Below are positions 11,846 to 41,475 of a stretch of 64,000 nucleotides of DNA, piece after piece. Position 1 is the first letter of the stretch. Every line of letters begins with the position of its first letter. Location of the stretch: positions 17,420,001-17,484,000 of the forward strand of contig CM049308.1 in assembly GCA_026874595.1 (NCBI GenBank). Reading direction: 5' to 3'. The DNA is from Sipunculus nudus (lineage: Eukaryota > Annelida > Sipuncula > Golfingiida > Sipunculidae). The translations under genes were made by a program, and so were the position numbers. The notes beneath the pieces are model-generated. The model saw only the letters and a list, made by a program, of their open reading frames with translations, made no database searches and was not told the DNA's origin.

Positions 11846-12118
11846 TTACATAGTGGGTGGTTCACACATGTAGCAGAAGTGCTTTACTATTCCCTTTTCG
11901 CAGCATTCACATCCAGTCGCTTCTTTCAGCGTGCTAGTCGAACATTTTACTTTGTTATTAACTAGAACAATTCCGGCCTTCTGGATTTTCTTTTTTTGGC
12001 ATAGCGTACCCTCTGGTGAGTCCTTGTATACTTTCGTCGTCTTTGCAGGATCGGCACACGCAGTCCCCGGGGCTGATGAATCCGGTGTAAACGTGGGATT
12101 CGCTATCACACAGTCACT
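11846..12118 (-). CDS. Exon 5: cysteine-rich C-terminal domain and stop codon
   Basis: The acceptor has a long pyrimidine tract (TTTTTTTTCATGTTACAG|AGT). The exon is entered in phase 0 and encodes residues 275-364, ending in TAA at 11848-11846. It has nine cysteines (C277, C295, C314, C333, C344, C346, C347, C356, C359), including a C-x-C-C cluster, and many lysines. I recognise no named domain. The start (SDC) resembles the beginning of a self-contained module appended to the protease fold. No canonical AATAAA is seen in the first 400 bases downstream on this strand; an AATACA variant lies near 11652-11657. Confidence 0.8.
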   Translation of the reverse strand, partial: SDCVIANPTFTPDSSAPGTACADPAKTTKVYKDSPEGTLCQKKKIQKAGIVLVNNKVKCSTSTLKEATGCECCEKGIVKHFCYMCEPPTM

Positions 12119-21100: not shown

Positions 21101-24100
21101 AATATTTATCTCGAGATCTCGAGATAACACCTCGAAGTCTCAATAATAAAATTTCGCAAAAAAAAATTTTAGGAAGCAAAAAAAAAATATCTCGCAAAAA
21201 AATTTAGGAGGCGAAAAAAATAGGAAGCAAAATAAATTTCTCGCATAAAAAAATTTAGGGGGGGGGGGGTTGCTTCAGCCCCTAAAATTCTATAAATTAG
21301 GCAGGTGAATAACGATTTTAAGACAAAAGCAGAGCATTTTGCTGAAGAAAATCATGATGAGAGATAATCGAAATATTGAAACCGTTTATTTATGTATATA
21401 AAACAATTATGAAGATAGGTTGACTAAGTTTATCTGAGCTATAGGTATAGCTATAGGGGATCAGGCTGGGGCTTTAGGGGCTGAAGCACCCCCCCCCCCC
21501 CCCCCCCTACCCGCGTAACTACCCGAAAACACAATAATCATTTTTAGCATGTTAACATTTATGATGGTCATATACATATTCCAAAAAACAACACACCATT
21601 TCAATAAAAACAAAAGGCTATGTCATCATCCTTACGGATATGAATAATTAAATATGGAATTTATATTGAACTTTTCTTCAACTTGCCTTATCTTGGGAGA
21701 TATACAAACTTAATTGATTTTAAATGAATTATATTGTATTACCGTTCAGTTTAACACAGTATACATGGTCTTTGTTTTATAAAAGCAATAGTTTGCACTC
21801 TTAACGTATACTGTCCCCTTTAACGTTGCTTTGCTTTATGTCAATTCAGCTTCGAATGGTTCGTACAAGTGTGAAATTTTATCTCGAGATCTCGAGATAA
21901 TATATATATATATATATATATTTGCTTCCTAAATTTTTTTTGCGAGATATATTTTTTTTGCTTCCTAATTTTTTTTTTGCTTTTTAAATTAATTTTTTTG
22001 CTTCCTAAAATATTTTTTGCTTCCTAAATTTTTTTTAGCGATATATTTTTTTTGCTTCCTAAATATTTTTTGCGAAATTTTATGTCGAGATCTAGATAAA
22101 TATTTTTTTTGTGTCCTCAATCAGCCACCGTAGGCGGGCAAATTAAAAAAATCTTTTTGTATAAAAATATATTGTGATCATGCAGTTTGAAACAATTAAG
22201 CAACATTTGACCTTTGACTCTGGATAGGTTGCTTGTGGATTCTTGATCAAAAGTTTAAGCCACTCAGAGCCACTTAGACTTACTTCTTCACACAATCTCA
22301 GAGAGGGTTTATAGGCAACATTGATACATTGTAGCTGGGGCGAAATTACCTGTTGCAACTGGGGGGGGGGGCTTCCATTCAGCCAATCACACACACACTT
22401 TCTATCCACGGGGTGGTGGGGGGGGGGCTCGTATATAGATTATAGAGCAACTACGTTCGTAAGCCTAGAATGCTCAGACGTTTTGCGGTCATAGCTGATC
22501 ATATAAGGTTGTTTGAAATGCCTAAACCGAGTTTAAAAATATGGACAGAAATATTTGCGAAACCATTTTGTCTTTGGGGCAGACTTATCTCCGTTTTGGA
22601 TTGTTACGTATTGACATGAAAGCGGACCGAACTGTCTCGCTAGTGGAGCTTGATTTTCTAGCGAAGCGATTAGAACATCGGACTTGTGCGCCACCGACAT
22701 GGGTTCGTTTCCGGATAGGCCCAATATTTTCCCCTGAGCAACTTCGTAACCGTATGTTTGGCAGCAATATGCAGAAAATGTCACATATACACCGTACAAT
22801 GCTGCTTTAAATTGTGTTTCAAGAGCTTTGGAAAGCTTAAGCTTTACACATTTTTGGGCTCAACTGGTCAGGAAATGTTTGAAAACACACCCTGAAGGGT
22901 TGGCTGTTGTTGTTTAAACGACTAGGAGAGGACTTTACATGGCCGAACCGCTCTGAACACATTTTGCATTTTCCATGAAATGTATATAATTTAGACCATG
23001 AGACGCTTACCTTGGGAACTGTGTAAGGCAATGTAACAGTCGCGGTCTCTTGGGGTGTGTCACCTGTAACACATATAAAGATTAACGTAAGTAAATATTA
23101 CAAATGGTATATTAAAGGACTACTATATAAACGTTTCAGTAAGTAACACATTGGTCTGTAAACAGATTATGAAAATACCTAACAGATTAAATTAAAAAGT
23201 TTTGAAGGCTGATATTGGTTCCGCAAACAAACAGTTGCCTTTGCAGTGTTATTCATGATAGATTATGGTAATGCAGGAATTTCTCCTGATTAACTGGGTT
23301 CTTTGAGCAATGGACACTTATCAATACCAAAACATTGACTGGCATACCAAACCGGTCAAAACCGCGTAAAACCGTCCCTCTTCGTTACCAAATACCTCCA
23401 AAATAGTTGCAGCTATCATCAAGTGCTTTTACGTCAATTAATGTGCAAAAACAATTATTTAGAGACTTTCTCTATGTTTCAGGGAAATGATTTTCCTTTT
23501 TTATAACTTTGGGAAAATTTCCTGTTTTTACACCATGGTAATTAAGTACTTGGTTTGTAACTGATTATTCCTAGAATGACAACAGCTATCAGTACCAAAT
23601 TACACGTATAAATTGAGCATGTGTATGTTACGGGTGTTACCTGGTGCTACCGGAACTGCGTAGTAAGTAGCTCCACTTTGTTTATACTGTTACTTCCAAC
23701 CAGCGAAAGGGGAAACTTTTGCGGAGTGACTCACAAAAAATATCCCTAAGCTGTCTGGTTTGCAAGAGAAATTAAGGCTTAAAATACAGGATGTATTTGA
23801 CACTGCCTAACTCAATAATAATATTAACTAACTCAATAAGCTTCATTGTGCACCAATTTAGACTTAACTTTGTAATGTTTTGCATTGATTAATTTGCACT
23901 TGCAAAGCTCTGGCTAATCTGACTTGCCGCCAGACGCCCTTGTTGAATTTGCTTTATTTTAGCGGGCGCCATATATTATAAACACGTTGATATAAACAAA
24001 ACAAGCAGCCTGTGTGCGGTGATATCAACGTTTTCTGGCCACTTTTTTTTATAAAAGCTGCAAGGGATTATCTTTAGTTAATAAAGGTCAGATAGGTGAT

Positions 24101-27100
24101 TGGGCCCTTTTAAGAACATGTTTCTCACAATGTAAATTTCAGAATTGCCTTTCATATTTTTTCTTAAATGAGTGCAATGGAAAAAGAACACTCTCACTTT
24201 TAAGGTCTTATTTATAAAATAAAATCATTATTTTTTACTCAATAAAAAAAACACTAAATTTTTTTTAAATATTAAAAAATATTTTCATGGCAGTTTTTTT
24301 TTATATACAAGTTGTAAGAAACAATCAGATATTTAAAGGTTGTATAACATATACTTTCTGAAAAATTAATAATTTAAATAAATTAGAAAAAAATATTTAA
24401 AACATATTATGTGACAAAGGCCTTTTGTAATTTCTGTTGTAAGTCTTGTCATTGTTGTAACTTATTTTGTGAATTGGTATAAACACAGACAGGACGATAT
24501 AATTTAGTGTCTTTATGTAAAGCAGTGATAACTCACTTGTGAATTGATCTTGTAGGTTTGCACCAGCGCCCATCGGCCCCAGTATATAACTGAGATAGGG
24601 ATAGACACTGACGACCACGCTGCATTTGCCCGTCGCACAGTCGGGAGAATTCCGAATAAGGATGCCAGCCAGCCGGCCTTCCTTGATCACGGGAGCTCCG
24701 CAGTCACCAAAACACGTGCCTTGACCTTGTGTGCTTTGACCATGCAGCATACAAATCTTTTTCACGTCATCGGTTATAACGTCTGGAAACGATTGTCCAC
24801 AGCATGTGGAACTTCCACCCCAAGCCGCTTCCAATATTTGTAACTTGTCAGGAGTAGTGGTGAGCGACGTCATTCCCCATGAAACTATTGTTGATGATTC
24901 TCCGACAGCGGGCACTTGTTTTTTTCGACATGGGAGCTTTATCGGCTCACATGTAGTCATTTCTTCATTTGTGATGAGTATGCCGATGCCAGTATTTTTT
25001 ATAGTTCTAACCACCTTCACACCTCCGCCATCATCGGTTTTTGATGGACCAACTTGCAATCTAAAATGAAATGAATACAGGTTATATTTAAACGTGAAGT
25101 TGACACCGATTTGTGCAGTTGTAGGCCTAAAAGAAACTGTGCAGCTGCAAATGTTAATGCTTTGTACAAGTCACAGACTGTTTTATGTCTCGATGAGTAA
25201 ATAATTGCATTTAATGGATTACTCAATCAAGGCTATATATACATGCTCTAGTATGAGTATTTTATATTGATGGTTTCTGTAATAATAATATATTATTTGT
25301 AATATTCTCGTTATATAATCTTGGATAATATTAATATCAGATTATTCAATAAAATATGAGAGATCCTCGACTTCAATTTAGATTTTTTACTTAAAGACTA
25401 TATTGTTAGGCATATATACACGCTGTGGTAAACTGCTATACATAATTATGGTGTATATATAAACATTTAACAATAAATTACTTAATTAGCGCAAAGTTTC
25501 TGGTAAAAGTGACCTCATTTTACACTGACTGGTGTTCAATTCATTACATGTTTAGGCAGTTGTACAATTTCATTCAAGTATACCACGCATCTAATACTTA
25601 TAGATATAATTCGGTTCACGTTTGTTTGCAACGTTCTCTAAAACCGCGTTGTGTACAATACTGTGCCATACATCATTATAAAAACCTTATCCCCGCAGTG
25701 ACATAGACGATATGAGAATAAATTTTTAATGTACATATAATTTTGGTGGTTTTTCCTTTTTTACTGACTTGTAAAGAGGTTAGACCCAGCACAGCCGAAC
25801 TGCCTTCGGCAATGACCGGAATACGCGCATCGTGGTCACTCAACCTCCAACACTATTTAAGACTATTGTTTATATGAATAACGCTTGCTTTCTGTGAGGG
25901 ATTTGAAGCTCTCTGGCCTTACATTTGAGCGAGGCTCTCACCAACGTGCGTGGTCAGTAAAAGAGAAAAACACATGTTTCTCGCTTTATGAAATGGAGAG
26001 TTCAACCCAGTGGGATTAATGAAAAAACCTAATTCAAGGTCCCAATTTCAGGAACAGGGGTGGGTTGGAGTGGTGGCGGTGGTTTCAGGCCTCAAAATTT
26101 GTCTGATAGGCCTACCATGAAAAAAAAAAAGGTTGCGGTGGCTGAAAATGGGAAACGGACCCTCTGCATGGAGTCCCGTTAGGTCCGCTTCTGGTACTTA
26201 TACGAGGTATGCTTATTTCTGTTTCTTTCTTCAGGAACAGTTTCCTTGAAACGTACATTTATTAAATCTTTCATGTCTTGTTCTGTTATTAAAACCTTTT
26301 GAGTCTTACTCTGCCTGGCGATTTAAAAATTACAGTATATAAACTGTCCATAAATGTATTTCGATATGCTGTTATGCAATACAGATATTGATATACTCTC
26401 AGAGGGAGTAAAGTAGGGACCTGAAAATCTGAGAAACAAAACAATTTACAGTCCTCTCTTAGTGGGCACCTCCATGCATAAAGTGGGCACGTCTATAAAG
26501 TGGGCACTTGTAGACAGTCCCATTTTTTCTTCTCTTTATAATGTTTAGCTAATGTGGGAATCTCTATATTCTGTGAAGTAGATACTTTTCCTCAGCTAAT
26601 GTGAGCACTTCATCGAATTTCCCAGTTGAAGTTTGTTCCTATGAAAACTTTCAGAGCTTTATTTATTGTGAATTTGCAACTTTTATCAAGTAGAATAATT
26701 GTTAATTATAAACTATTTAAACTTCAACTACCAGCGATTAATACTAAAACAGATAAACATAGGTCAGAGTTTATTAGTCTAATTACATAATCATAATAAT
26801 AGCCTTCTTGGCTCAAGGCTAAACAATGGATACATACATACTAATTATGGTTGTTCTGGGGATGGTTTATAGCCAGCAGTGAATGCATCACTCAGTAGCC
26901 ATTCATATCAGACTGACAGCCATACTTTGACCTGGCAGTCACTAGACTTTCTTATGTAAGGGAAGCATATAAACTTATAGTTAATACCGTGAGTGGACAC
27001 CTGTTCATTCATCCAATTACTTGGCACTCTGAGATGCGTAACAGGGTCAGGTCCCCCTGGCCAAGTGCAATGTTTACTTGGCAGTTCAACTTTAATAATG

Positions 27101-30100
27101 ATCAACACCAATCACTGATCATTTGCGTGCATTCTGTGTCATATTCACTGTTACTGTCCACTTATAAAATGTCAGCCCAAACTGAAATGTAAAGCTTTGG
27201 CATAGCCCTAGAAGTGTACCTGTTCAAAGATTCAGAGAGTGGTTTGTCTTACAGGAAGTTTGTAGAACAGTATGGTATATTTAAGGATGCACTGCGTAAC
27301 CTATCAGAATATTAGAAAGATTTTAAAAACAGGATCAATGCTTACAGGTTAAATCTACCATTATGTTACCACACACATATATATATATAAACAATTATAA
27401 ATTATTACTTAATAACTTTTATGTTTTAAAACAGGAAGAAAATACAAACTGGTCCAGATTGCACAATCACTACTTTCGAATCATTCTGCACTATGTGGGG
27501 GAATACCCCTTTCCACACACCCCCTACACCTCTGCTAATTCGCGCTTCAGATATGAGCCCCAGGTCCCACTATTAACCACAGGCGTTTGACACAAGTTTG
27601 TGGTAAATTTATTCATACTATTCACTTAAAAGAAAATGACTGGATATCGCAGAATAGTTTTATGGTTTGATAAAAGCAAGCAGATTAAAGAAAAACAGCT
27701 CGCCCATTCCATGTGTTACTATATATCAACTAATTTCTCTAAATCCTAAATATCGAGTTACATAAACAAAGCCGGGAGATGGAGTTTAGAGCCTTCTAGA
27801 CTACCAGATTTTTCTACAGGAAAGCTTCCAGACCCAAAGAAGTATTACCCCTATTATATTAATTGCATGCATATATATATATACCTGTAATATCTATTAT
27901 ATATTATACTTGGAAATGAAACAGTAATGATAAATCCTGTCGCATTAAGAACTGGAAGTTTATTATTGATCCAGGTTCGTAAGGATAAAGAATTATTGAT
28001 GTAATCACTGAAAACATTTTAAGAGTTTTTGATAAAACAGGAATAATTATAAATGTTAGAATTGTCTTAATATGTTCAGATACAAAGGATAAATATATTA
28101 GAACACTGAACTTGCAGCGAAAAAAAAATTAATATTTGTCTTAGAAGTTTTACCCCACTTGGAAAACAATATTAGTGAAGGCTTATAAATCATGCCAAAA
28201 CATATTTACTATGTGTTTTCAATACCAAATTTCACAGATGTAACAGAAATTTAACAGTCAGCAACAAGGAAAAAGCATCAAATAAAGTTGGTCTCCAAAC
28301 TTTTAGTGCAAAACAAGTGACCCATGGGCCATGACGCTCAGCTTATTTTGACTAGGTGCTCATTTCTTTTATAAATGTTATATATTGCCAATAGCCTATG
28401 GCTAATGTTACTCTTTTGAAAAATGGACAGAAAAATCAAAATTTCAGGATTCATAGGAGATCTGCCGAGGAAAATGGATACTATTTCTACCCTGTCTGTC
28501 TGGGTGCTCAAAATCATGTTTCTGGTCCATAGCTAGCAGAACTTAGGTCACCATGAATCAATTTCAGGTTTCCAAGGAGAATGGCCAAGGACTTCCCTGA
28601 ATGTCATATTAGAAGAGCTAATGGATACAATTTGTGCCCTGTCTGACTGCTTAAAAGCATGCTTCTGGCCAGTAGCTTGCAGAATATAGGTCACTATGAC
28701 CTAATTTCGGGTTTCCGAGGAGAATTTGCCTAGAACCTACCAGGAAGTTGCGTAAGACGATTCTAGACCTAATGGATACAATTTGTGCCCCGGCTTTCTG
28801 TCTGGGTGCTTAAATAACATCTTTTCCTATAGGTCGCAAAATATAGGTCATGATGAACTTATTTTAGTTTTCCAAGGACATTTGCCAAGGACGTCTCAGG
28901 ATGTTACATTAGACGATTCTAGGCCTCACAGATACGATTTGTCCCGATCTGACATTCAGGGTGCTCATATGACATCTTTTTCCTATAGGTCGCAGAATAT
29001 AGGTCAGAGTGACCTAGTTTCAGGTTCCAAGGACATTTGCCTAAGATCTCCCTAAATGTCACGTAAGAAGATTCTAGGCCTAATGGATACAATTTGTGGC
29101 CCGTCTTACTGTCTGGGAACTCACAATCATTTTTCGGTCAGTAGGTTAAAAAATATAGGTCACCATGACCTGATTTCGGGTTTCCAAGGAGACTTGCCCA
29201 GGACCTCCCTTGATGTACAGTTAGAAAATTCTAGGTCTAACGGTTACGATTTGTGCCCTGTTAAAAGACGGACGCCCGGACAACCGGATGGACGCCGGAC
29301 AAAGGCTGATCGCTAGAGCTAAATCTAATTACAATGATCAGCAGGGGTTCCCTTGTTTTAAAGGTAACCCGACAGTGAAAAAAAAACTTACTTTGTACAA
29401 CTCTATACGACAGGGCTTCAACGGACTCCTTTATTTCTTACATTCTCCTATGAATAATTGCCAAGCTCATAAAAATCCCTGTTTTCCAGCATTTAGACTG
29501 TAATTCCCTATATTTTCCTATATATTGTCAATGGACAATATCGGGTTTCTAATTATCTGTTATTAATGAACAATTTTGTTATAAAGTACGGTTTTTGATT
29601 CCCAGTTCTTTTGTAGACCGGTACATGTACTTGTTGCAGTTAGTTATAAGGTTAAACCATCTATAAATCAATTAAACAGACCTTTAGGTGCTGTTTGTAT
29701 AACTAATGGTCATTGAATTAAAGTAACTAAGTACAAAACGACTGTGCAGTGTAAACTCCTACATTTTTGTCTCAGGTATTCCTTTAAAATTCCTATATGT
29801 ATTAATTCAGGGCTTGCTTAGATGTCGTTACGACCTTTACATGCAGTGGGGTACCTTTGAAAATGATTATTGTTATTACCTGTCAAAAGAGAACTATGAC
29901 TTGTTTATTTTATTATCTTGGTATTGCGTATTTAAGTTAGTATAACCAAACGATTGTTCCCATAAATTGTTGTATATTAATCTGCCGTATCATGTATCGA
30001 TGTTAGCTTGGAAATGTAGATAAAGGGAACCCAGATGTCTTATCTGATGTTGGTTTCAGTTCAGTCGTTATTGTGTGAGAACTGTTTCTTAGCAGATTCG

Positions 30101-33100
30101 TCAGCGTTAGTCTATACAGTTTCCTGTAATAACATTGTTTACTGTAGAATTCAAATGCAACGCACCTGCATACTTGATTATTCCCATACTTTTTCTCTGG
30201 TGTCCAATTTGGTATTCATGCACTGAACGAAAGGAGGTCTCGTAATATTGTACAGCGATTGGCCAAGAGCGGTTAGCATTTATGACGAAAGCATCAGTAT
30301 ATTTGCTAAAGCCGCGAGAGTAAAGGCACAATCTCCTATAGGTCAAAGCGCTGGATGGTGTAGTCTGGCCATTTGTCGGTCCAGAGGAGGGGCCAAGATT
30401 GTCTGTGAACTGATCAGATGAGGGGCTATTTTCCGTTGTATTGTATGTCAGAGTCTGGGGGCGGCCAACTGAATTTCACTAACGGACTTGTGAATTGTGT
30501 TTACAGAAGGAATTGTAAACAGCCGATGTGTATCTACCGTGGTGGAGCCCAGCGAACAGGTTAAAGGACAACTGATACGCTGATCTGTCTGTATGGTACC
30601 GAATACTGTCGTGTGTGGTGGCATATCCGGTACAGATTACTGGAGTCATCCAGGGTGATACTTCAGTGACATACATTGTCTGAGGCATGCTGCATTTAAC
30701 GCTGTGTGTCTTTCTGTCAGCGATTCAGAGAAGCGAGTACCTCAAAGGTAGAGACTGTGTTCAGCAAGTGATTTGTTTGACGGCTAGAAATGCTTGTGTA
30801 TCGTGTGTATGAAACCATCAGGACCCGGGGAGTACATTCCTAAGTCACGGGCGCGACGATCATGTAACCGGCGGCTTATGTGCCGGGCGAACTTTCTGTA
30901 AAGTGTGCATTCAGGATTAATCAGGAGTCTGTGCATTTGTGTATTTATGTGAACTCTATGTATATTGTGCCATGTGTGTGGGACGCCTCTCCAGAGAAGC
31001 GTGAGTTAATTTTATTATACTTTTATTATTTATGTTACACACGTCTTTCTCATCATTCGGATTGTATGTGTGAGCTTCAGCCGGTTAAGTTCACCGTTTC
31101 AACAACCTAGAAAATCCATTCCTTCGGGGATGTGACACTTCCGCTTTTGCTTCTAAGTGCCATCTAGTTTCCAATCACAAAACGATTCAAAAGTCTTAAA
31201 TATCTATCTTTTCGATTAAGCTTTAATCATATTACAGCGCAACGCAGTGAAACGGTTTGTATTCTCATTGGCAATCCAATCAAATGTATAAGAAAATACA
31301 AAGGAATTATCTAATTTTAAAGTCTTGCTCAAACTGTGTCACTAAATGGGCACAAGATGGCGATTAGATGCAATAGCGGTTTCGCCGTAATTAATAAGTG
31401 TGCTCTTTAAACAAGTGACCCATGGTTCATGACGTTCAGCTAACTAGAACAGTCTATAATGTTAACATTTTCAACTGTGTCAACAGCAGTCCTGAAGAAC
31501 TGCCTGCTCAGATTTTCATCCTTTTTTCAAATAACCATGCATCCTACTTGTGCAGATGATGCACACTATTTTAGTCTTGGGGTTGAGTGCAAACGTTTTG
31601 CTTTGCAGCCCAGAATACTTAAAAAAGTCTGATTTTCTAAGTGCTAAACCGCATGTAACTCCTAAAAATATGGATCACAGTGGCCTAATTTTGTTATGCA
31701 GCGAGATTAACCAATGAAAGAAGACATGTCTAGGTCAAACATTCAAAATTTATGCCTTGTTAAAAACTGGCCAGTCGTAACAACTGGCCAGCAGTCAATG
31801 TGAAAAATGTAGATGGCGCCACCATTCTTCAACAGCTAAAGGGCTATTCATGATCAATAAACTTGCTGAATTTCAGAAAGAATTGTGAAATCATTACTGG
31901 GCTATTTTATCTAAAGTATGAATTTCATAATTCAACAGCTGAAAATGTAGAAATTTTGCAATTGTGTCCGCAACAGTTCTGAAGAACTGGCTTGGCCAAG
32001 TGTCTTCACTTTTCCCCATGGTAACAGTGATATATTTGCCGTAAGTTTAAGGGTTGAGAGCAAACATTTTGCAGCCCAGACCACTAATATAAATCTACGT
32101 GTTAAAACACAACAAGTGACCCATGGGTCATGACGCTCAGCTGACTGGGAAGAGATTCGCAAAAGGAAATTTTATCATCAGAATGGTAGTATATACCCAT
32201 TCAACTGAAGCATCAAACAGATTAACCAACAGGCCAAGATTTAGTCTGTATTTATATATCTCAAAAATAGAGAAAAATGTGTAAACTTTTAAAACTAGAA
32301 TACGGGTAACCGACAAGTGACTACATGTATCTGCCAAAATCGGATAGTGGGGCATGGATTGAGTGGAAAGGGGAAATAGAGTGAGGTATGTTGCATATTA
32401 GCATGGATGTCTGCAGCCTAAATGTGTATGTAGGTTGTGCCACCTACCACAAATCCAGAAAGCTGTCCAAGTTGTATACACCTGCAAAATTTTAGGCAGA
32501 AAAGTCAAACCACTACATGTATATGAGCGATTTTTGCCCATGGCAGACAAACAGACAAACACTGTGCAAAAATCTTTGCAGGTAACCCCTCCAGTTTTGT
32601 GTATGATAAAGACCTATGTGAGATCTAAACACATGCACAATTTTGGCCCAATCGGTCAAATGGTTCCTGAGATATGAGCTTGGATGTGTCCAGCGTTAAC
32701 TAGAATGTAGGTGGCGCCACCTGTCATAAAATCAAGAAAGCTGTCCACGATGTATAAACCTGCAAAATTTTAGGCAGTTATGTCGAACCACTACAGAGAA
32801 ATGAGTAATTTTAGGCCACGGCAGACTAACAGACAGACGCTGTGCAAACATTGTTACAGGTGGCGCCACCATTTTTTGTGTATGTTACAGAGCTATCAAA
32901 GGGCTACATTTGTATAAATTTTATTTCCTGATCGGTCAAACGGTTCCCGATATATAAGCTTGGATGTCATCAGTGTGAACGTGAACGTAGGTGGCGCCAC
33001 CTGTCATAAAATCAAGAAAGTTATCCTGGATGTATACACATGACGAATTTCAGGTGAATTAGTCAATTCACTGCAGAGATATAAGTGATTTTAACCCAAG

Positions 33101-36100
33101 GCAGATGAACAGATGGACACTGTGCAAACATGGTTACAGGTGGCGCCACCATTTTTTGTGTATGTTATAAAGCAATCCAAGGGCTACATTTGTATCAATT
33201 TTATTTCCTGATCGGTCAAACGGTTCCCGAGATATGAGGGTTTATGAGTGGAAACAGACCCACAAATGGACACTGGATAGAGAGGAAAGGTCAGAGGTCA
33301 ATGCAAATTGGTTAGGCACCAGTTCACATGTGACCCGATAATAGGTGTAAGTTTGGGAAAAATCGGTCCATTAGTCTCCGAGGAGCTCTCTGGAAACGAA
33401 CGCCGCAGCGGCGGAGGAACTCGGTCAAAAACATAGTATCCGCAAAACTTCGTTTTGGCGGATACAAAAATACAGGTGGCTCCACCAGTCTGCAGAAACT
33501 AATAAAAACATCTAATGGTCAATATCCATGCAAAAATCATGGTGATCTCTGCATTAGTTGTTCAGATACTTCAGTTTTTGTATCAAATTGTCCATTATTC
33601 TGAGGGATACTTCGGAGTCCTATAGCTTGAAGGATATGGGTAACAGAGACCTAATTTCAAGTTTCCACAGGCACCTTTCATGGGCCTCCTTGCATGACAA
33701 GAATGAAGATTCTAGGTCCAGTTGTTGCGATTTGTACCCTGTTGACAGATAACCACATCTTTAAAGGTCTCAAAAAAAAGAAAAAATTCGTAAAAATTTG
33801 AAAAAAAAATATAGGTGGCACACCCAGTCTGCAGAAACTGATGGAACAGCTCATGATCAATATGTATGCCAAAAATCATGACCATCAGTGTTGTAGTTAT
33901 TGAAATACTGCAGTTTTTGTATCAAATTTTCCATTATTTGGGGGGGGGGGGGGTATTTTGGACCCATACAGCTTAAAGAATATGGGTAACAGAGACCTAA
34001 TTTCAAGTTTCCATGGAGACTTATCATGGGTCTCCCTGTGTGTCAAGAACGAAGATTCTAGGTCCAGTCGTTACGATTTGTACCCTGTTGACAGATAACT
34101 ACATCCTTAAAGGTCTCAAAAATGGAGAAAACAATTCGTGAACATTGAAAAATACAGGTGGCGCCACCAGTCTGCACAAACTGATGAAACATCTCATGAT
34201 CAATATGTATGTCGAAAATCATGACCATCAGTGATGTAGTTAATGAGATATTGAAGTTTTTGTATGAAATTTTTGACTATTCTGGGGGGTAATTTTGGGC
34301 CCCATAGCTCGAAGGATATGGGTAACAGAGACCTAATTTCTGGTTTCCATGGAGACTTTTCATAGGTCTCTCAGTGTGTCGAAAATGAAGATTCTAGGTC
34401 CAGTCGTTACGATTTGTGCCACGCTAACAGATGACAGCATCCTCAAAGGTCTCAAAAATAGAGGAAAAAATCGTAAAAAATCAAACAGTACAGGTGGCGC
34501 CACCAGTCTGCAGGAACTGATCGAACATCTCATGATCAATATGTATGCCAAAAATGAAGACCATCAGTGATGTAGTTATTGAGATATTGAAGTTTTTGTA
34601 TGAAATCTTTTACTATTCTGGGGGGTACTTTGGGGCCCCATAGCTCAAAGGATATGGGTAACAGAGACCTAATTTCTGGTTTCCAAGGAGATTTTTCATG
34701 GACCTGTCAGTGTGTCAAGAATTAAGATTCTAAGTCCAGTCTTTATGATTTGTGCCTTGTTAACAGATGTTCACATTTTTAAAGGTCTCAAAAATAGAGA
34801 AAAAAATTCGTAAAAAATCGAAAAATACAGGTGGCGCCACCAGTCTGCAGGAAGTGATGTAACATCTCATGATCAATATGTATTCCAAAAATCATGACCA
34901 TCAGTCAAGTAGTTAATGAGATATTGAAGTTTTTGTATGAAATTTTTGACTTTTCTGGGGGGTACTTTGGGGCCACATAGCTCGAAGGATATGGGTAACA
35001 GAGACCTAATTTCTGGTTTCCTAGGAGATTTTTTATGGACCTCTCAGAATCCCAAGTTACAAGGTTCTAGGTCCAGCGGTTACGATTTGTGCCTGGTTAA
35101 CGGACGGACAGACGGACAGACGGACAGACGGACAAAGAGTGATCGCCATAGCTCAGATGACTTTCAGTCAGCTGAGCTAAAAACGCACGTAATTTCCAAA
35201 ATATAGGTTACAGTGACCTTATTTTTTGTATCGAGAGAGATTTACCAAGGATCTATCAGGGTATCAAGTAAAAGGTTTCTTTGTAAACGTTTACGATTTG
35301 TGCCTTGTTAAGGACGGAAGAACGGGCAGACCGCCGGATGGACCACTGACAAAGGGTAATCACTATTGCTCAGATGACCTATGGATCCGGTATCGGCCAT
35401 GAGAAATTACTTGATTTTGCATATTGCCATGTAAAACTCTATGTGTTCGAATTCATATTCGTGAAATAAGCCGAGTAATCATATAAATGCCTTATGGATG
35501 TTCCTTTGGTCAATCCAGCTCTCTCAGAATATACCGATTTACATGTTAAAGGTGAATATAAGATACTAGAATTTTGCATTCAGAGATCGCAGACCTCTGT
35601 CAAGGCAGCTCGTTATTCCCCTTATGGCATTGTCAGAAATGTAGCATTTTTCCTTTAAAAAAATCATTAATCCAAATGGTGATCAGGATTACACCAACAA
35701 CTTAATCATTTGTTCCTTGTTTCATTGCCGAGCTATCCTTAAAAGATTTCCATTAAAATCCGTCAATAACTTTTTTGAGTAATGTTGTTAACAGACTAAC
35801 AGACAAACTAACAAAAAAAACAAACATACCAACGCCGGCAAAAACTATGACGAAGGTGAAGGTTGTCAAAAGAGGTGTAGTTTAACAAATAAGGAAATAG
35901 ACAAGAAAGCGTGGATTGTCATCATAAATGAAAATAATGCGGTTACATAGGAATAAAATGCGAACATTTCTATGATAGGAAATGATCCGTAGACCCGCCC
36001 TTGAGATTTGTTTACACATAAATAACTCAAATGAGTACTTAAAGGACTGGTATTACTTACTTTATGTTTGCTGGACTGTCAGTGGCCACGCACGCTCCAC

Positions 36101-39100
36101 ACGTGAGCACCACCTTTTTTCCTATACACACGCCGCTGCACGAAGTAAGTCCGTTTTCAATATAAGCCATGTGATTCGCATACATTCCAGTTGGATACTC
36201 AGCCCCTATGGGTAAAAAAGAACAGATGCAAGATTATTAACTTGGTAATAAAACGATATGACACAGGACAAAATTTAAACCAGCAGAATCATAACATCAA
36301 CGATTAAATGCACATACTCTGAAACGTGGCAATGTTATAAATATCCCTCACAATATATGATAACAGGGTAGGCAAGTTTTGTTTTTTTTTTTTTTGATTT
36401 TTTACACTCAAGTTATTAACATCATTAATTAACGTCAATTTACGTCATATCAAAACATGTTTTTACACCCTTGTGCATATAAAATACTGTATGAAACCTA
36501 TGTTTGCTCTGAAATGAACAGGTTCAGCTGAACAACAGTATCTAGTAATGATCAATTTGGTATCTCAATCCTACACTTATAATATGTCAAATGGACAATA
36601 TGCTTGACAGTCAGGTGAATGTCCAGCCTGCAATTTGGTTCATGGTTTCCTTCCCAGCTAGCCACTGGCTTGCGCTCTTCAATCAAGGATGAATGGCAGT
36701 CCCCTTGTCTTTTATGGTACTCTACTGGCTATACGCTAAAGTTCTCAAAGGGATGGGTCGTCTTTATTACATCATCCTCAGCCATCAAATGTTATTTACT
36801 TTTTGACAGGCTACACGGCCACTTAAGCACCCTAAATGCCAGCAAAATGCTGTTTAGGGGAAACACTGCTGAGAGTCCAACGGAGGGTGTGATGGAGGAT
36901 GACGTCAGAACTTTAAATCCAATGGACATTTGCATCATGAATGGTTTGGTTAAATTGTAGCCCAGCTGTTTTTTTAAAGTAGCCCAACTAGACACAAGAA
37001 AGCTTTCGAATATGTATCATGGGGCTCTGAGAGGAAAATCGCAAATGGTATCACTTTGCATCAACATTTATGCAGAAAATGATTTTACTGATTGTTTACA
37101 TCTCTCTTAGATTAAAAAATAAATTTAATTTTTATTTTCAGTCGAACTCAACAATTTTGATCATCTTTGGGGCTAACCAAAGTTGTCGTAATTTGGGGGT
37201 GGTCATTTTGAAATTCTAAGTTACATGAATCATATATTCGGGACCAGGCAAGGTGGTCGTAATTTTTTGGATGGTCGCACTTGTGGGATGGTCGCAAGCC
37301 GGGGTTCACTTTATATCATATATAACAGGATATGCGTTAATATTTTTTAAAATTATTGTGAGTATATAAGAATGAATTTTAGTTATTTTCAATACTTGTC
37401 AGTTTTTTATGTTAATAACATTTTTTAACAGTTATTTACAAGTTTTTACAGCGTAATGTAACAAAATAGGTTTTGACCGTGAAAAAAAAAAACATTTTTA
37501 CATTGTAACATTTAACATTAATCTCGGAACTGTTAGGGGTCTTCTTTTGCTTAAACTATATATGAGGGCGGTTGCTTGCTTCTCTTTGAATAGAGCCTGA
37601 TATACTTCACGTCACAGGTAACCAGTAGGTCACCAGTGGTTCAAGTGTCTTTTTTTAACAAGCTGTAATTATGCATCAAAGACTTCAGCACATCTTAGTT
37701 TCATCCCGGTACTTTATCAGAAACTCTCATGCTATAAAGGTATGAGTAACATGCTGTTTCGTGTAGTTAACATTGGGTACATTCAGTACAATTAATTCTA
37801 AGCCGAGAAATGTATTTTAAAGATTTATATTGGATTTTGGACATAAGTTTTATGGCTATATCCATTAAGTCATTTCACTTAATCAGAAAATAATCTGACC
37901 ACATTAAGATTGGTGTAAAAGTACTGAATATCCACTGACCGTACCAACGTTATATTTTTTAAGGGGCTTTCGCTGTATATAAGTGTTTGATGACTATTTA
38001 GATACCTTTCAGATGGAAAGATTAAATTCTTTTAGATGGCAGGACCTTGGGCCATGTACTTCAGAGCTAATCAAGGTTTAAACCCTGACAGAAAAAAAAG
38101 CTCAAAGAGCATCAAACAACATGATCGTAGCTGCATGCAGGTGACGATTCTCACTGCACGTGACGCTTCTCACTGCACGTAACGATTGTCACTACACGTG
38201 ATGATTCTCACTTCACGTGTTGCCACTGTGCAAGTAATGCAGGTTGTAAATTAAAAAGAAATAAAACGTGTTGTGTTGTATGTTATTCTCATTCGTATTA
38301 AAGCCAGCTGTTCGCCTACCTTAAAACCAACGGGATTCTGGCTCACTCTGGTTATTCATTGATGTACTGCCGGTAATTTCTGTTAAGAACAGTTTTTATA
38401 ATGCCCTTCTGATGGGTGTATAGTTTATCTACAAAATGGGGACAATTACACAGCTAGGACCCGCAGCTGCGATGCACCGTATCCAGACGCCTGGTCAATC
38501 GTGTGCTACTGGGCTGCCACGTAGTCCGATGCCACGTAGTCCGATGCCGAAATGGAAATTTGTTACTGTACGTGCTTATTTAAACTAGGATTTGAAAAAG
38601 GGGGAGGTTACATACACGAAATAGGCCTGTACTTCCCTGATATTAATTTAGTATACTTTATGGATCTACCTATGAGATTCGTCAAATTTTATTTTTGCAC
38701 AGAATTGTTAATCTTTACTCCGCAGTGACTGTGCTTTTGTTTAGAAAATAACAACCTGAAATCATTCAGGTAACATTCAACTACTACCACTACGACTACT
38801 TGCCGTGTGGATTCCGAATATAGGGAACACACATATTGAAAAACTAATAGCTAGAGAGTTTTACCCAGATTATATCACTTGAAGCAGCTAACAGGGGTTG
38901 ATTTAGACGGAGCTCATTGGGCGCGCGGCCCCTCTTTTGACAAACAAAATCTTGATTACAGAAAAATACACACTTACCACCGAAAAACAGCGGCGGATTA
39001 TATTCCCAGCTTTGCATGCGAGAGTTATGTGTTAAATTTGCTAGCACACTCCGAACACTTATTTACGTATGCAAGGCTGCTAAGCTCCATCCCACCCATT

Positions 39101-41378
39101 CCCGGCCCGCCTCCCAACCCATTTTTTTCCGATTCTGTATCCAAACCTAACTGAGGACGAGTATCTTTCAACTGAAGACCTAAAAAGGTACTACCAGTCC
39201 ATTCCTAGGCCTGTGCTTTAGCATCCATGTACATGTCAGCTAAGGCCCTCTGGCCTTTCCAAAGCCCAGACGGCACCAAACGATCAAGTCCGGCTAAGGG
39301 CACTCAAACGTTCGAATTCCTCCCATGTGTGTTCCACATGAACAGGCATTTCACCAACTCGGCTTACACTGGCGGCGCAGTGATACATTGTACAAAATAT
39401 TTTTCTACATCTCAGTTACAGCTTCGTTATTTGCATCATCCATGCCTCAATTAAATTATAGGCAAAGCAATTGGTAAGCCTATACCAGTGAGGCACAAGT
39501 TACAAGCACTCTGTAAAATGATGGTGTGCATACGTTTACTCCCATGTAACAGGCATTACACCAACTCGGCTTACACTGGCGGCGCAGAGATAAATTGTAC
39601 AAAATATTTTTCTACACCTTAGTTACAAGCTACATTATTTGCTTCTGCCATGCTCCAGTTAAATTAGAGGTCAGGTAAGTGTTAAACCTTCCATTGAGAC
39701 ACAGATTACAAGCACTCTCTGTAAAATGATGGTGAGCATGCAAGGACAAACATTTTTTAAAAGAATCATATGAGTAGCTTCTAATACACAAACGTGGGTG
39801 GTTGCTGTGGCGGGTAAACCATTTCCAATAATTTAAAACACGAAAATGTGCAGGTAGCTACAGAGCCCGCTTTGAACTTTCTGTTTTAGGCACTAGATGG
39901 CACTGTGCTAGGATTTCCATTATAAATGTGCCTGAAACCGTACCGGAGCCAGTCTGGAGAAGGGGTTTTAAAACTGGCTGATCCCTCATTAGCTTGACCC
40001 TAAGCAACATGTCGTTAATTTCTGGTTAGAAACTTGTTCTCATCGCTTCGTAACTTTAACTTTGCACTTGGATAATATGTTTCATTATCTTATTTGAACA
40101 AGAAAACAAGTAAGGTGTCGCAATTAAGGGATTGTTACCAAGACTATGTTTGCATATGTTGTCAAAGGAGAGTCAGTTATTACTCTTTAGGCAGGGCACC
40201 TACAGATATAATTATGTAATGGAGACTCCATTTGCAGAGACGGATACTGCGTCTAGGCTTCGCTATGTTGCTCCATTAATTAATTAATTACTTCCACTAT
40301 TGAAATAATCAGGTTATAACACCCGATGTATGATAGGATTTTAGATTGCCTTTATTAGGAACGATTTTTTAGAAAGCCATCTTGTATTTTCATTTCAACG
40401 ATCAGTACTAAATTTCTTATCATATATTCTTATCTTATTCTGATATTACATCATTTTTATAATTAATTTACATGTCTTCGTCTTTCTCAACCTCTTCGTA
40501 TCGGAATATTTACAAGGTGAGCTGCGGTGTGAGCACCGCCTTCATGCATAGTTATGGATAGTACTTGATATTTTGTTTAGGGACAATTATGATATCGGTG
40601 TCAGAAGATAAAGAATGCTACATTTAATTATTCTGAAGGTAAAATTTACCGTTAGCACTTTAGGCTGTAATTTGGGAAATTAGCTGGGACAATCATACCG
40701 GCCTGATCTGACAGCCGGTAGAACTGGATGCGAACACCCATACCAAGGGTAGGATAGAATTATTGCTGTGTAGTAGGATTTGACATCAGAGGCTTGTTAC
40801 ACAAAATGTGTAGGTTATTCAAGCTGTCATGACAGACGGAGAGACAAACTTTCCGAGTAAAACCAGCCTTGTTATTAATAACTGCTGCCTGTACACAGGG
40901 TGAATACAGGTTAGTCGACCGGGAATGTAAAATTTATTATTTTCCAAAACAGAATTACGTCAATATTTAATCTTACCTCGGGAAAATCACAGTTCGACAA
41001 GAAAATAAAAAAGTACGGTCAGAAATAGGCGTGAACATCTACTTATACTAGAATTGCTCCGAACCCTATATGTTGTACTGCCACCTCAACGTCTTCAGTT
41101 AAATAAAAAATCGACATTTGGGTGGCAGGCTGCCGGTGGGGGGGGGGGGGGGGGGTGGTGGTGTAGTTCTGGACAATTCAAACCAGCGCTATATCATTTA
41201 ATAAACACATTATATGTTCAAAAAACTTAAGTGGCTATATGTAACGTCTATACATCTCACAAATAAACAAAAACTTACCTCCAACAAGAAAATCTTCCTG
41301 CGCCCGTTTATTTCTTTGCAAAAGATCCCGGCCGCATACCGCATGGATGCACAACAGAGAAACGATCAGCAGCTTCAT
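11846..41378 (-). CDS. Secreted trypsin-fold pseudo-protease with cysteine-rich tail (whole gene, 5 exons)
   Basis: The spliced frame is 1095 nt (364 residues plus TAA). It joins exons 41279-41378, 36061-36205, 24537-25060, 23011-23063 and 11846-12118 with phases 1, 2, 1, 0, and every intron is GT-AG. Residues 1-16 form a signal peptide. Residues 17-30 are a propeptide-like stretch with a basic NKR (23-25). LVGG (31-34) matches the mature start of trypsins. Residues 31 to about 243 follow the chymotrypsin fold: Cys42 and Cys58 equivalents are C56 and C72, exactly 17 residues inclusive as in trypsin; SWG at 142-144; GDCGAP at 200-205. His57 becomes A71, Asp102 becomes G106 and Ser195 becomes C202, so proteolysis is not expected. 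Asp194 is kept (D201). Residues 257-274 are a Thr/Pro linker and 275-364 a nine-cysteine domain I do not recognise. The protein is probably extracellular. The role is unknown; serine-protease homologues elsewhere act as cofactors, inhibitors or binding proteins. Additional unseen alternative exons are possible. Confidence 0.88.
12119..14569. other. Intron 4, 3' part: no feature beyond unassigned sequence
   Basis: A frame at 13273-13037 (minus) reads 78 codons with an AATAAA inside its end. It has no recognisable domain, so it is not called. The rest is AT-rich. Confidence 0.5.
14570..14742. repeat. 30-bp minisatellite, left part
   Basis: Degenerate units of about 30 bp, consensus close to 'gatgctaatttctcatttaagatttgat'. 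The same array resumes at 15545. Confidence 0.8.
14743..15539 (-). mobile_element. Solo LTR inserted into the minisatellite
   Basis: Read on the minus strand it starts TGTGACACGGGCGTAAC and ends GATCTGTTTATATTAGGTTCC-GTAA. The last 350 bases align with the 3' part of the LTR at 53354-54363 ('ggtggtatcca', 'tgtattgatt', 'acttctttattcattcccc', 'gctgcctagtgtt', 'gttccgta'). No internal retrotransposon genes flank it, hence a solo LTR. The expected terminal ACA is mutated to AAA. Confidence 0.75.
15545..16065. repeat. 30-bp minisatellite, right part
   Basis: About 17 degenerate units of about 30 bp with consensus 'gatgctaatttctcattaaagatatgattt'. It is continuous in sequence with 14570-14742 apart from the LTR. 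Confidence 0.88.
16570..16745. repeat. Small GGATCC-ended inverted-repeat element, copy 3
   Basis: It begins GGCGGATCCAGAGGCC and ends 'ttttggaccctcccctttccaaaatactgga'. Its inner 'tttagtcttcctcttttggacc' matches copy 2 at about 9618-9640. Confidence 0.5.
16800..17090 (+). pseudogene. Ty3/gypsy reverse-transcriptase/RNase H relic
   Basis: Three short segments in different frames align in the order expected of a gypsy pol. First is a block with FQIPLAGQKF (compare YWQIPLAEED). Next is IRMMPFG (compare TRMPFG) at about 16939-16960. Last is LKEVLSLSLPQKPFVLLTDE (compare LPDF-KPFVLLTDAS), ending at about 17050. Frameshifts, stops and a deletion after MPFG, which removes the YVDD block, show that it is dead. 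It lies in intron 4 on the strand opposite to the host gene. Confidence 0.65.
17095..17510. repeat. Dispersed repeat, second copy of 7790-8400
   Basis: It shares 'aaattcaacaaac', 'gattggtctggtttatgttaagt', 'ccatgaagcgttgtcaaaattacgaaaatat' and 'gggccgaaatggtgct' in the same order. It directly follows the gypsy relic, so it may be part of the same decayed element. Confidence 0.6.
17511..18829. other. Intron 4, unassigned
   Basis: No gene or clear repeat was seen. Several short open frames here lack support. Confidence 0.45.
18830..19610. repeat. Degenerate tandem array
   Basis: Recurring blocks 'aaaatgtagaagtctca-t---ttttattttag' (18852, 19085) and 'caaaggggcccggg/cccat' (19211, 19331, 19410) in fixed order suggest diverged units of roughly 200 bp. 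GC-rich 'gggcccggg' alternates with AT-rich spacers. Confidence 0.5.
19611..21070. other. Intron 4, unassigned
   Basis: AT-rich with a G run at about 20005-20017. No exon-like frame with splice signals in phase with the host gene was found. Confidence 0.45.
21073..22130. mobile_element. TA-flanked inverted-repeat DNA element
   Basis: It begins CGGTGGCTGATTTAGGACAC and ends with the inverted copy (GTGTCCTCAATCAGCCACCG). It is bounded on both sides by TA, the target duplication typical of Tc1/mariner-type elements. The inverted similarity continues inward for over 100 bases through A-rich blocks ('aggaagcaaaaaaaatat'). A perfect 20-bp palindrome TATCTCGAGATCTCGAGATA occurs at 21107-21126 and again at 21880-21899. 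There is no transposase, so it is non-autonomous. Confidence 0.82.
21258..21507. mobile_element. Second inverted-repeat element nested in 21073-22130
   Basis: The left end is a G run followed by TTGCTTCAGCCCCTAAA and the right end TTTAGGGGCTGAAGCA followed by a C run. The ends are inverted copies, about 250 bp apart, and interrupt the outer element. Confidence 0.75.
22603..22750 (+). mobile_element. tRNA-derived SINE-like element, copy 1
   Basis: It starts GTTACG and ends CGTAAC. It shares its body with 43005-42870 on the other strand. The segment at about 22658-22712 looks like a tRNA: 'ctagcgaagcgattagaaca' as an A-box region, 'cggacttgt' as the anticodon stem, and GGGTTCGTTTC as the B box. 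Frames on either strand here are artefacts. Confidence 0.7.
23011..23063 (-). CDS. Exon 4: short Thr/Pro-rich linker
   Basis: A 53-nt exon lies between acceptor TATGTGTTACAG and donor AAG|GTAAGC. It completes Ser257 with the single base left by exon 3, encodes DTPQETATVTLPYTVPK, and ends in phase 0, which is what exon 5 needs. It is too short to be found as a stand-alone open frame; its support is splice signals plus two-sided phase agreement. It probably acts as a flexible, possibly O-glycosylated spacer between the protease-like domain and the cysteine-rich tail. Confidence 0.75.
23064..24536. other. Intron 3
   Basis: 1473 bases, AT-rich. No repeat family was recognised. It starts GTGAGT and ends TTACAG on the minus strand. 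Confidence 0.75.
24537..25060 (-). CDS. Exon 3: main body of the protease fold, Asp102 and Ser195 replaced
   Basis: The acceptor TTTCATTTTAG|A and the donor ACAA|GTGAGT enclose 524 nt (residues 82-257). The open frame has no stop and is the longest in the window. NTGIGILIT (104-112) aligns with the NNDIALLKL block, placing G106 at Asp102. IVSWGMT (140-146) matches the Trp141-Gly142 block. C185 and C198 match Cys182 and Cys191, and C169 or C168 matches Cys168. GTCFGDCGAP (196-205) matches DSCQGDSGGP, so position 189 is Gly, 194 is Asp and 195 is Cys. C223 matches Cys220. SVYPYLSYI (233-241) matches the C-terminal helix region, usually YTKVYNYVKWI. A translation running on past 24537 would be intron. 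Confidence 0.93.
25985..26195. repeat. Small inverted-repeat element, diverged copy 4
   Basis: 'gttcaacccagtgggattaatgaaaaaacct' and 'cccgttaggtccgcttctgg' match the family at 5621, 9497 and 16570, but the GGATCC ends have decayed. Confidence 0.4.
26445..26640. repeat. GTGGGCAC-motif repeat, probable MITE fragment
   Basis: It begins CAGTCCTCTCTTAGTGGGCA, followed by two more GTGGGCAC motifs. The start resembles the ends of pogo/mariner-type MITEs. The far end is not defined. Confidence 0.35.
26641..28311. other. Intron 2, unassigned AT-rich DNA
   Basis: Nothing coding. Short TA tracts occur at about 27375-27388 and 27872-27882. Confidence 0.5.
28312..29323 (+). mobile_element. Pearl/Helitron-like element, copy 3, with 156-bp core repeats
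   Basis: It starts AACAAGTGACCCATGGGCCA and ends with GGACAAAGGCTGATCGCTAGA then GCTAAA. The core has five tandem units marked by 'atataggtca' at 28545, 28688, 28845, 29001 and 29157, spacing 143-157 and mostly 156. Open frames across it encode a repeating GDLPRTS-like string only because the units repeat; I do not treat them as protein. Confidence 0.78.
29324..31409. other. Intron 2, unassigned; possible LTR-like tail near 31000-31128
   Basis: The 30020-31128 stretch is less AT-rich and ends 'ccttcggggatgtgaca' after an AATT/TTATT-rich block, which is LTR-like. I could not define a start or a target duplication. Confidence 0.3.
31410..32110 (+). mobile_element. Pearl/Helitron-like element, copy 4, 5' part
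   Basis: AACAAGTGACCCATGGTTCA marks the 5' signature. It includes a GGCGCCACC motif near 31815. It is interrupted at 32111 by a second complete 5' signature. Its 3' part may be 35181-35390. Confidence 0.6.
32431..33270 (+). repeat. Tandem array of 280-bp units
   Basis: Three units start near 32431, 32708 and 32989. They share 'aatc-agaaag-t-tcc', 'actgtgcaaa' and 'gatcggtcaaacggttcc'. The last two each contain GGTGGCGCCACC twice. Confidence 0.8.
33473..35168 (+). repeat. Tandem array of 339-bp units
   Basis: Five units start at 33473, 33812, 34155, 34491 and 34828 (spacings 339, 343, 336, 337). Each opens with CAGGTGGCGCCACCAGTCTG or a variant, and contains 'gaaggatatgggtaacagagacc' and 'ggtccagtcgttacgatttgt'. 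Apparent open frames in either strand repeat with the unit. Confidence 0.88.
35181..35395 (+). mobile_element. Pearl/Helitron-like 3' tail, probably the rest of copy 4
   Basis: It has 'aaaatataggttacagtgacc', a GGACGGAAGAACGGGCAG stretch, and 'gacaaagggtaatcactattgctcagatgacct', which matches the family 3' end. It directly follows copy 5. Confidence 0.55.
36061..36205 (-). CDS. Exon 2: N-terminal half of the protease fold, His57 replaced by Ala
   Basis: The acceptor TTTTTTACCCATAG and the donor ATAAA|GTAAGT frame 145 nt, entered in phase 1 and left in phase 2 (residues 34-82). Residues 56-72 read CSGVCIGKKVVLTCGAC. In trypsin the same 17-residue interval runs from Cys42 to Cys58 and ends in TAAHC. 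The catalytic His57 therefore aligns with A71. Extra cysteines appear at C60 and C69, positions 46 and 55 in chymotrypsin numbering, which are normally not cysteine. The exon lies between 5.1 kb and 11 kb introns full of repeats. Confidence 0.87.
36206..37138. other. Intron 1, 3' part, unassigned
   Basis: A 113-codon plus-strand frame at 36619 has no recognised domain and no supporting context, so no gene is called. Confidence 0.45.
37139..37315. repeat. Probable MITE with CAGT-GAAC ends
   Basis: The left end is CAGTCGAACTCAAC and the inverted right end is AGTGAACCCCGGCTTGCGAC. Inner 'gtggtcgtaattt' and 'gatggtcgca' motifs repeat. The ends resemble those of pogo/Tc1-type MITEs. Confidence 0.4.
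38135..38225. repeat. 20-bp minisatellite containing CACGTG
   Basis: About four and a half units of 'cacgtgacgattctcactg', with CACGTG or near-matches (GCACGTGA, GCACGTAA, ACACGTGA, TCACGTGT) at 20-base spacing. It lies inside intron 1 of the pseudo-protease gene. Confidence 0.85.
38226..39317. other. Intron 1, unassigned
   Basis: A short pair 'gccacgtagtccgat' is duplicated at about 38517-38547. No gene seen. Confidence 0.45.
39318..39742. repeat. Tandem duplication of about 215 bp
   Basis: Both halves (about 39318-39532 and 39538-39742) contain 'accaactcggcttacactggcggcgcag', 'attgtacaaaatatttttctaca' and 'acaagcactct-tgtaaaatgatggtg' in order. Confidence 0.88.
39743..41278. other. Intron 1, 5' part
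   Basis: AT-rich with (TTAA)n at about 40277-40291 and a G run at about 41138-41155. It begins GTAAGT at 41278 (minus). Confidence 0.6.
41279..41378 (-). CDS. Exon 1: start codon, signal peptide and propeptide-like stretch
   Basis: The ATG is at 41378-41376 and has A at -3. It is the first ATG after the predicted cap site. It encodes residues 1-33 plus one base. MKLLIVSLLCIHAVCG is a typical signal peptide with cleavage likely after G16. RDLLQRNKRAQEDF follows and then LVG. In ordinary trypsinogens a Lys or Arg sits immediately before IVGG. Here the residue before LVGG is Phe (F30) and the nearest basic pair ends at R25, five residues upstream, so classical tryptic activation would not expose the LVGG end. 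The donor site is G|GTAAGT. Confidence 0.88.
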
Positions 41379-41404: not shown

Positions 41405-41475
41405 TGCAATGAGGGATTCGTTGAGATGGGCGTTTTATATATCTAGACTAAAACTGCAGCTCGCTCTGTGATTGG
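41405..41475 (-). promoter_or_regulatory. Core promoter of the pseudo-protease gene (CCAAT, TATA, initiator)
   Basis: On the minus strand CCAAT is at 41475-41471 and TATATAAAA at 41441-41433. CTCATTG with a candidate +1 A at 41410 is 29-31 bases after the TATA box. The ATG follows 32 bases later at 41378. The spacing is that of a strong, tissue-restricted TATA promoter. Confidence 0.72.

Follow-up and report, generated by a model that had tools for sequence, protein, structure and literature searches.

Gene structure and protein layout

The locus described here is a minus-strand gene running from 41378 to 11846 in a window of 64,000 nucleotides (C3:17420001-17484000) from the 1.43 Gb genome of Sipunculus nudus. 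Its five exons join in consistent phases with GT/AG borders throughout and end in a TAA stop, and the encoded protein of 364 amino acids is laid out as a signal peptide, called by eye, followed by a short propeptide, an S1 trypsin domain, a linker and a cysteine-rich tail. A TATA-like box, TATATAAAA (41433..41441, minus strand), has its first base at 41441, 63 bases ahead of the start codon, and is putatively functional.

Exon 1 (41279..41378, this and all following exons and codons being on the minus strand) carries the start codon, the signal peptide and a propeptide ending in KRAQEDFLVGG, and closes with a phase 1 donor. Weak matches to it (E 0.07 to 0.41) are correctly placed upstream of all five tandem paralogs on C3. 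Exon 2 (36061..36205), for which paralogous exons are found, holds the Cys42-Cys58 block, CSGVCIGKKVVLTCGAC, and has a phase 2 donor. Within it lie the codons for Cys69 (36099..36101), at chymotrypsin position 55 and a cysteine in all 15 family members, and for Ala71 (36093..36095), at position 57, which is His in peptidases. The remaining S1 domain, up to residue 256, is encoded by exon 3 (24537..25060; donor phase 1), whose AlphaFold model matches trypsins and which includes the codons for Gly106 (24988..24990; position 102, Asp in peptidases) and for Cys202 (24700..24702; position 195, Ser in peptidases), the latter within GDCGAP.

Since the exon 3 donor is in phase 1 and exon 5 starts in phase 0, a linking exon is needed, and this fourth exon is the uncertain part of the five-exon model. 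Five candidates are phase-compatible; the one at 18347-18268 scores highest (16.5), and the one chosen, at 23063-23011, ranks second among distinct candidates (13.2). The proposed exon 4 (23011..23063, 53 bases, phase 1 to 0) encodes the linker SDTPQETATVTLPYTVPK and is favored by its nearness and linker-like sequence, with no homology support. Exon 5 (11846..12118) is backed by homology and encodes the 90-residue tail, which has nine cysteines and GCxCC-like and CxxC-like ends, followed by the TAA. A possible AATAAA polyadenylation signal lies at 11266..11271 on the minus strand, with others at 11253 and 10976 and an ATTAAA at 11392. An earlier note on this DNA had confined a five-exon gene to 24537-41378; three exons do lie in that interval, and exon 5 and the proposed exon 4 fall outside it. 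The protein is thus longer than described there by its cysteine-rich tail, and Cys55 had gone unmentioned.

Tandem arrays of long period (156, 280 and 336 bp) occupy parts of the large intron separating exons 2 and 3, at window positions 28679-29258, 32395-33235 and 33466-35101. The 280 and 336 bp units have GGTGGCGCCACC in common, and a short GACGGACA repeat is also present in the window. On the minus strand at 54833-55228 lies a fragment of a retroelement integrase core domain (Pfam rve, E 3.6e-9).

A trypsin domain without its catalytic triad

The Pfam Trypsin family (PF00089) covers residues 32-240 of the first 256 amino acids (E 5.2e-15; 56.3 bits against a cut-off of 20.6); for the 364-residue form it scores 54.4 bits and is the sole Pfam family matched. 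Among solved structures, fire ant chymotrypsin is the closest relative (E 3.7e-11), and alignments with solved relatives place Ala71 on His57, Gly106 on Asp102 and Cys202 on Ser195. The earlier note had described a trypsin-fold protein without the triad, and both the Pfam match and the alignment of solved chymotrypsins and trypsins over the domain bear this out. Its residue assignments (A71, G106 and C202 at positions 57, 102 and 195) prove exact once exons 1-3 are joined in phase, and the 17-residue block that it claimed is C56 to C72 (positions 42 to 58). Asp194 is kept, as it had said, along with Gly193 and Gly196. The N-terminus lacks a clip domain: the propeptide has about 14 residues, with the signal cut placed by eye, and PF00089 alone is matched in the 364 residues.

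An AlphaFold model of exon 3 alone, built with 15 aligned rows, reaches a mean pLDDT of 76.1 and a pTM of 0.74. It yields 665 PDB matches at E <= 0.001, including trypsins and chymotrypsins, and haptoglobin, HGF-beta and SMIPP-S-I1 are also present among the 50 matches listed. The trypsin matches listed for this exon 3 model have TMq values of 0.52 to 0.64.

That a different exon might bring the triad back had been named as a possible objection to the loss of catalytic residues. Three regular expressions for TAAHC-like and GDSGGP-like motifs find no hit among the 1210 reading frames of 30 or more amino acids in the window, and such an exon is rejected.

The gene family in the genome

Exon 3 as a query returns 30 matches in its own genome, itself included. 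Nine paralogs are 44 to 49% identical in exon 3, of which five are on C3, three on C6 and one on C14; the five C3 paralogs stand in tandem at 17.16 to 17.37 Mb, on the same strand as the window gene and adjoining it. More distant members whose exon 3 is open are found on C8 (three), on C10 and at C3:54.59. Exon 2 relatives lie upstream of each paralog. Exons 2 and 3 are both open in at least 14 paralogs, and the window gene brings the count to 15 members. This count leaves aside a second C10 gene, a broken gene at C14:11866971 and the copies at C3:21.13 Mb. The second C10 copy (C10:16304545-16308730; L052, L027) has Cys55 and Cys195, and its exon 3 is read in two pieces (16304545 and 16308524). 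The relatives at C14:11866971 and C3:21132395-21142349 (L024, L043, L025, L057) are broken by stops or split frames; Cys195 is still readable in both the C14 and the C3 copy, and Cys55 in the C3 copy.

All 14 genes spliced are compatible with a phase 2 intron separating exons 2 and 3, an agreement that is partly by construction, as splicing demanded a phase 2 exon 2 donor and a phase 2 exon 3 acceptor. The first exon 3 donor is in phase 1 in 14 of 14 genes, and a phase 0 acceptor stands ahead of 13 of the 15 other tail exons examined. In the C8 genes at 7.815 and 7.774 Mb, the acceptor used trims exon 3 by about 20 residues. The C3:54.59 gene is included in the tree and the residue counts and stands outside the 14-row alignment; counts over 15 members include this one gene scored by eye.

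A branch with support 89/88 sets the 15 Cys195 genes to one side in a tree of 27 rows built from the exon 3 part. A wider group (99/97) holds these genes together with three homologues that have Ala195 (C6:17.69 and C13) and one that has Gly195 (C8:69.27), and eight triad-type rows fall outside it. The root is a midpoint root, and the program warns of long branches meeting here. The Ala195 homologues (C6:17690607 and C13:50857202-51039523; L029, L030, L033, L035, L037, L038) read YTGDAGAA or YYGDAGAA in the three examined; one lies near the C6 members of the Cys195 family and the rest are clustered on C13. Their exon 2 was looked for and not found, and the coupling of Cys55 with Cys195 described below thus covers the other S1 domains only.

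Fixed and variable active-site residues

Across the 15 members, position 57 is occupied by Ala (6), Thr (1), Lys (2), Arg (3) or Asn (3) and in none by His, and position 102 by Glu (9), Gly (5) or Asp (1). Positions 195 and 55 are Cys in 15 of 15, and C55-x-x-C58 recurs in every member. Gly193 is kept in 13 and Asp194 in 14 of the 14 aligned members. Four triad-intact S1 domains from the same genome have Ala55, His57, Asp102 and Ser195; L007, L008 and L034 likewise have His57, Ser195 and Ala55, and the inactive outgroup at C8:69.27 (L032/L051) has Ser55, Tyr57 and Gly195. Among the eight S1 domains that lack Cys195 and have exon 2 read, seven have Ala55, one has Ser55 and none has Cys55. Because Cys195 and Cys55 occur together in all 15 members, and S1 domains without Cys195 have Ala or Ser at position 55, Ser195Cys is, on the sequences, an ancestral change retained along with a second cysteine rather than the decay of a single gene. 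The earlier note had pictured one gene losing three residues together. This does not hold, as the absence of His57 and the presence of Cys195 are common to all 15 members and position 102 varies.

Both TGT and TGC codons occur at positions 55 and 195, and these synonymous changes indicate that the residue is kept and not the DNA alone. Residue 57 drifts while the cysteines at 55 and 195 are constant, a pattern suggestive of a new, selected structure at the old active site.

Other features of a working peptidase are missing as well. Ser214-Trp215 is absent from 14 of 14 aligned members, the window protein having I217-R218-N219 on its substrate strand, and the Arg or Lys that precedes the IVGG-like start is absent from all five propeptides read among the 15 members (F, Y, Y, Y, Y). 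Triad, activation site and substrate strand are all lost, and the protein is very likely unable to cut proteins. With its S1 domain, replaced triad and intact gene, it falls in the class of S1 pseudoproteases, or SPHs. A Cys-His-Asp or Cys-His-Glu protease was also considered, prompted by Glu102 together with Cys195 and by Asp102 in the C3:54.59 gene, and was rejected as exon 2 reads without His57.

Selective constraint

Nei-Gojobori dN/dS values range from 0.21 to 0.68 for the other five C3 tandem genes (ten pairs) and from 0.25 to 0.36 for the C6 genes (three pairs), and they are below 1 for all 53 defined NG86 values (55 pairs, 11 genes). This set leaves out the three C8 genes and the C3:54.59 gene, and YN00 values cover part of the pairs. 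When the window gene is compared with its nine close paralogs, dS is above 1.2; the ratios there (0.27 to 0.41) are therefore saturated and no more than indicative. In seven pairs chosen from the 55, pN/pS is below 1 in each, with a Fisher p below 0.003 in six. The tandem pair 17.225/17.164 gives a pN/pS of 0.71 (p 0.12), which indicates that constraint is moderate. The proposal that the gene is maintained by selection for another task is supported by the 14 paralogs in which exons 2 and 3 are open and by nonsynonymous changes being rarer than synonymous ones.

The cysteine-rich tail

Relatives of exon 5 lie downstream and on the same strand for all 14 paralogs, nine at E <= 1.6e-5 and five at E 0.02 to 7.2; these five weak matches belong to the remoter paralogs and are convincing mainly by their place and cysteine pattern. 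The tails have nine cysteines in ten rows and ten in three rows from C8 and C10, and they are basic, with pI values of 8.1 to 9.7. None of 13 members matches Pfam at E <= 5, and a profile search of the PDB returns no match at E <= 10. The structure model of the tail is of moderate confidence (best pLDDT 74.1, other models 51.7 to 73.5, pTM 0.57). Compared with PDB folds it gives a best Foldseek E of 6.4 and nothing with VIA-align, which does not imply a novel fold. Structure prediction followed by structural search, one of the checks that the earlier note had proposed, thus connects the exon 3 part with trypsins and leaves the tail without a PDB fold match.

A proposed disulfide framework

The cysteines of the three standard S1 disulfides (positions 42, 58, 168, 182, 191 and 220) are present in 14 of 14 aligned members and in four of four triad-bearing controls. 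Two further pairs covary: the cysteines at window residues 60 and 119 are both present in ten of 14 members and both absent from four, and those at window residues 168 and 228 are both present in seven and both absent from seven, each pair representing one or two events on the tree. After the standard disulfides and covarying pairs, the unpaired cysteines of the domain are Cys69 (position 55), Cys202 (position 195) and Cys126. Counts for domain and tail are 13+9, 11+9 and 10+10 in the respective subfamilies and hence even throughout. The simplest reading would be that all cysteines are paired, although the parity would be unchanged if 55 and 195 were both free thiols. A Cys55-Cys195 bond would bridge the former catalytic center and lock it; window residues 60-119 and 168-228 would form further added bridges, and Cys126 may be joined to the odd tail cysteine in the close subfamilies.

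Proposed function and alternative explanations

We consider it probable that the window gene encodes a secreted, catalytically dead S1 protein with a C-terminal cysteine-rich domain, one of a family of at least 15, which acts as a disulfide-locked, non-catalytic two-domain binder. Secretion itself is probable. The protease domain would serve as a disulfide-locked scaffold in a rigid two-domain protein, whose function would be to bind and not to cleave; its partner could be a ligand, a protease or an inhibitor, or the basic tail could attach it to an extracellular surface. Such roles have precedent in other S1 pseudoproteases, which act as ligands, cofactors or scaffolds according to the accessible text of PMC13194640. 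A distinctly unlikely elaboration is that the Cys55-Cys195 disulfide is redox-sensitive and switchable, opening and closing the old cleft and thereby controlling binding, in a two-domain family not described before whose tail has a new fold.

The protein may alternatively be a structural or matrix component, its disulfides and Thr/Pro linker making it a building block of shell, byssus, egg coat or mucus rather than a specific binder. The 22 cysteines outside the signal peptide of the window protein, the tandem expansion of the genes, the TATA-like box and the basic tails would all suit such a role. No repeats or low-complexity blocks are seen by eye in the 364 residues, however, and the even cysteine counts suggest internal pairing, so we regard a matrix role as unlikely but credible; it overlaps with the binder proposed above, and the probabilities given to the two do not sum to one. 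Extracellular cysteines are usually oxidized, which counts against a thiol switch or metal site formed by Cys42, Cys46, Cys55, Cys58 and Cys195 (CSGVC, TCGAC and GDCG). The invariance of Cys55, Cys195 and the C55-x-x-C58 spacing would agree with a redox or metal center of this kind. Against it, Cys42-Cys58 is a standard S1 disulfide, the triad-bearing controls have both of these cysteines too, and Cys46 is replaced by Phe in the C8, C10 and C3:54.6 members, making this explanation quite improbable.

Two further alternatives carry very little weight. A cysteine peptidase, with Cys195 of GDCG as nucleophile and another residue as base, could draw on the retention of Gly193 and Asp194 and on the Glu102 of nine members. 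Position 57 is variable and devoid of His in all 15, the substrate strand and activation site are lost, and the window protein's three histidines beyond the signal peptide (45, 188 and 354) stand elsewhere than at position 57, which leaves such activity very improbable. That the gene is a decaying trypsin pseudogene is scarcely credible. Broken relatives do exist, at C14:11866971 with stops and at C3:21.13 Mb in pieces, but the frame is open across the window gene, exons 2 and 3 are open in 14 paralogs, pN/pS is below 1, and splice phases and the nine tail cysteines recur. Decay confined to this single gene is rejected on the paralogs and pN/pS values alike.

Relation to known S1-fold proteins

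Viral 3C-type cysteine proteases of the chymotrypsin fold have a nucleophilic Cys in GxCG and keep the His. The GxCG-type cysteine of the present family is alike; unlike in those enzymes, His57 is found in no member (A, T, K, R or N). Haptoglobin and the HGF beta chain differ from the window protein in domain architecture and in the residues replaced. They resemble it in using the S1 fold for binding and not for catalysis, as presented in the accessible part of PMC13194640. The same text describes PRSS23 as a secreted S1 protein without the Ile16-Asp194 activation switch that keeps its triad, whereas both triad and activation site are lost here.

Insect SPHs are likewise mostly secreted S1 proteins with replaced catalytic residues in a large gene family, as far as the accessible text of PMC11172050 goes. 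For Tenebrio molitor it reports 125 SPHs, with Asp102 replaced in 13 of them and Cys not among the residues listed for position 195. The whole triad can therefore be lost in at most 13 of 125 there; the view in the earlier note that such a loss is unusual stands insofar as it is uncommon, but it is not unheard of. Relative to the Tenebrio proteins in that text, the present family is set apart by the loss of His57 and Ser195 and the presence of Cys195 and Cys55 in 15 of 15 members and by its new tail. The SMIPP-S proteins of the scabies mite also come from a multigene family whose S1 domains are inactive and have mutated triads (PMC4930577, accessible portion), and one, 3h7o, is a fold match at 19% identity. 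Neither a Cys55/Cys195 pair nor a cysteine-rich tail is mentioned in that portion of PMC4930577, and the accessible open-access literature yielded no report of a conserved pair of this kind or of such a tail.

Isolated dead proteases occur often and are difficult to interpret; the 15 genes here amount to an evolutionary experiment. The family would be a clean case of an enzyme active site turned into a structural element, beside a tail that has no match in Pfam or the PDB.

Elsewhere in the assembly, many contigs from C61 to C90, together with C117, contain equal-scoring, uninterrupted S1 frames of about 391 to 537 amino acids. Guessing from their length, these look like bacterial DegP-type proteases, and an associated bacterium may be represented in the assembly by several strains.
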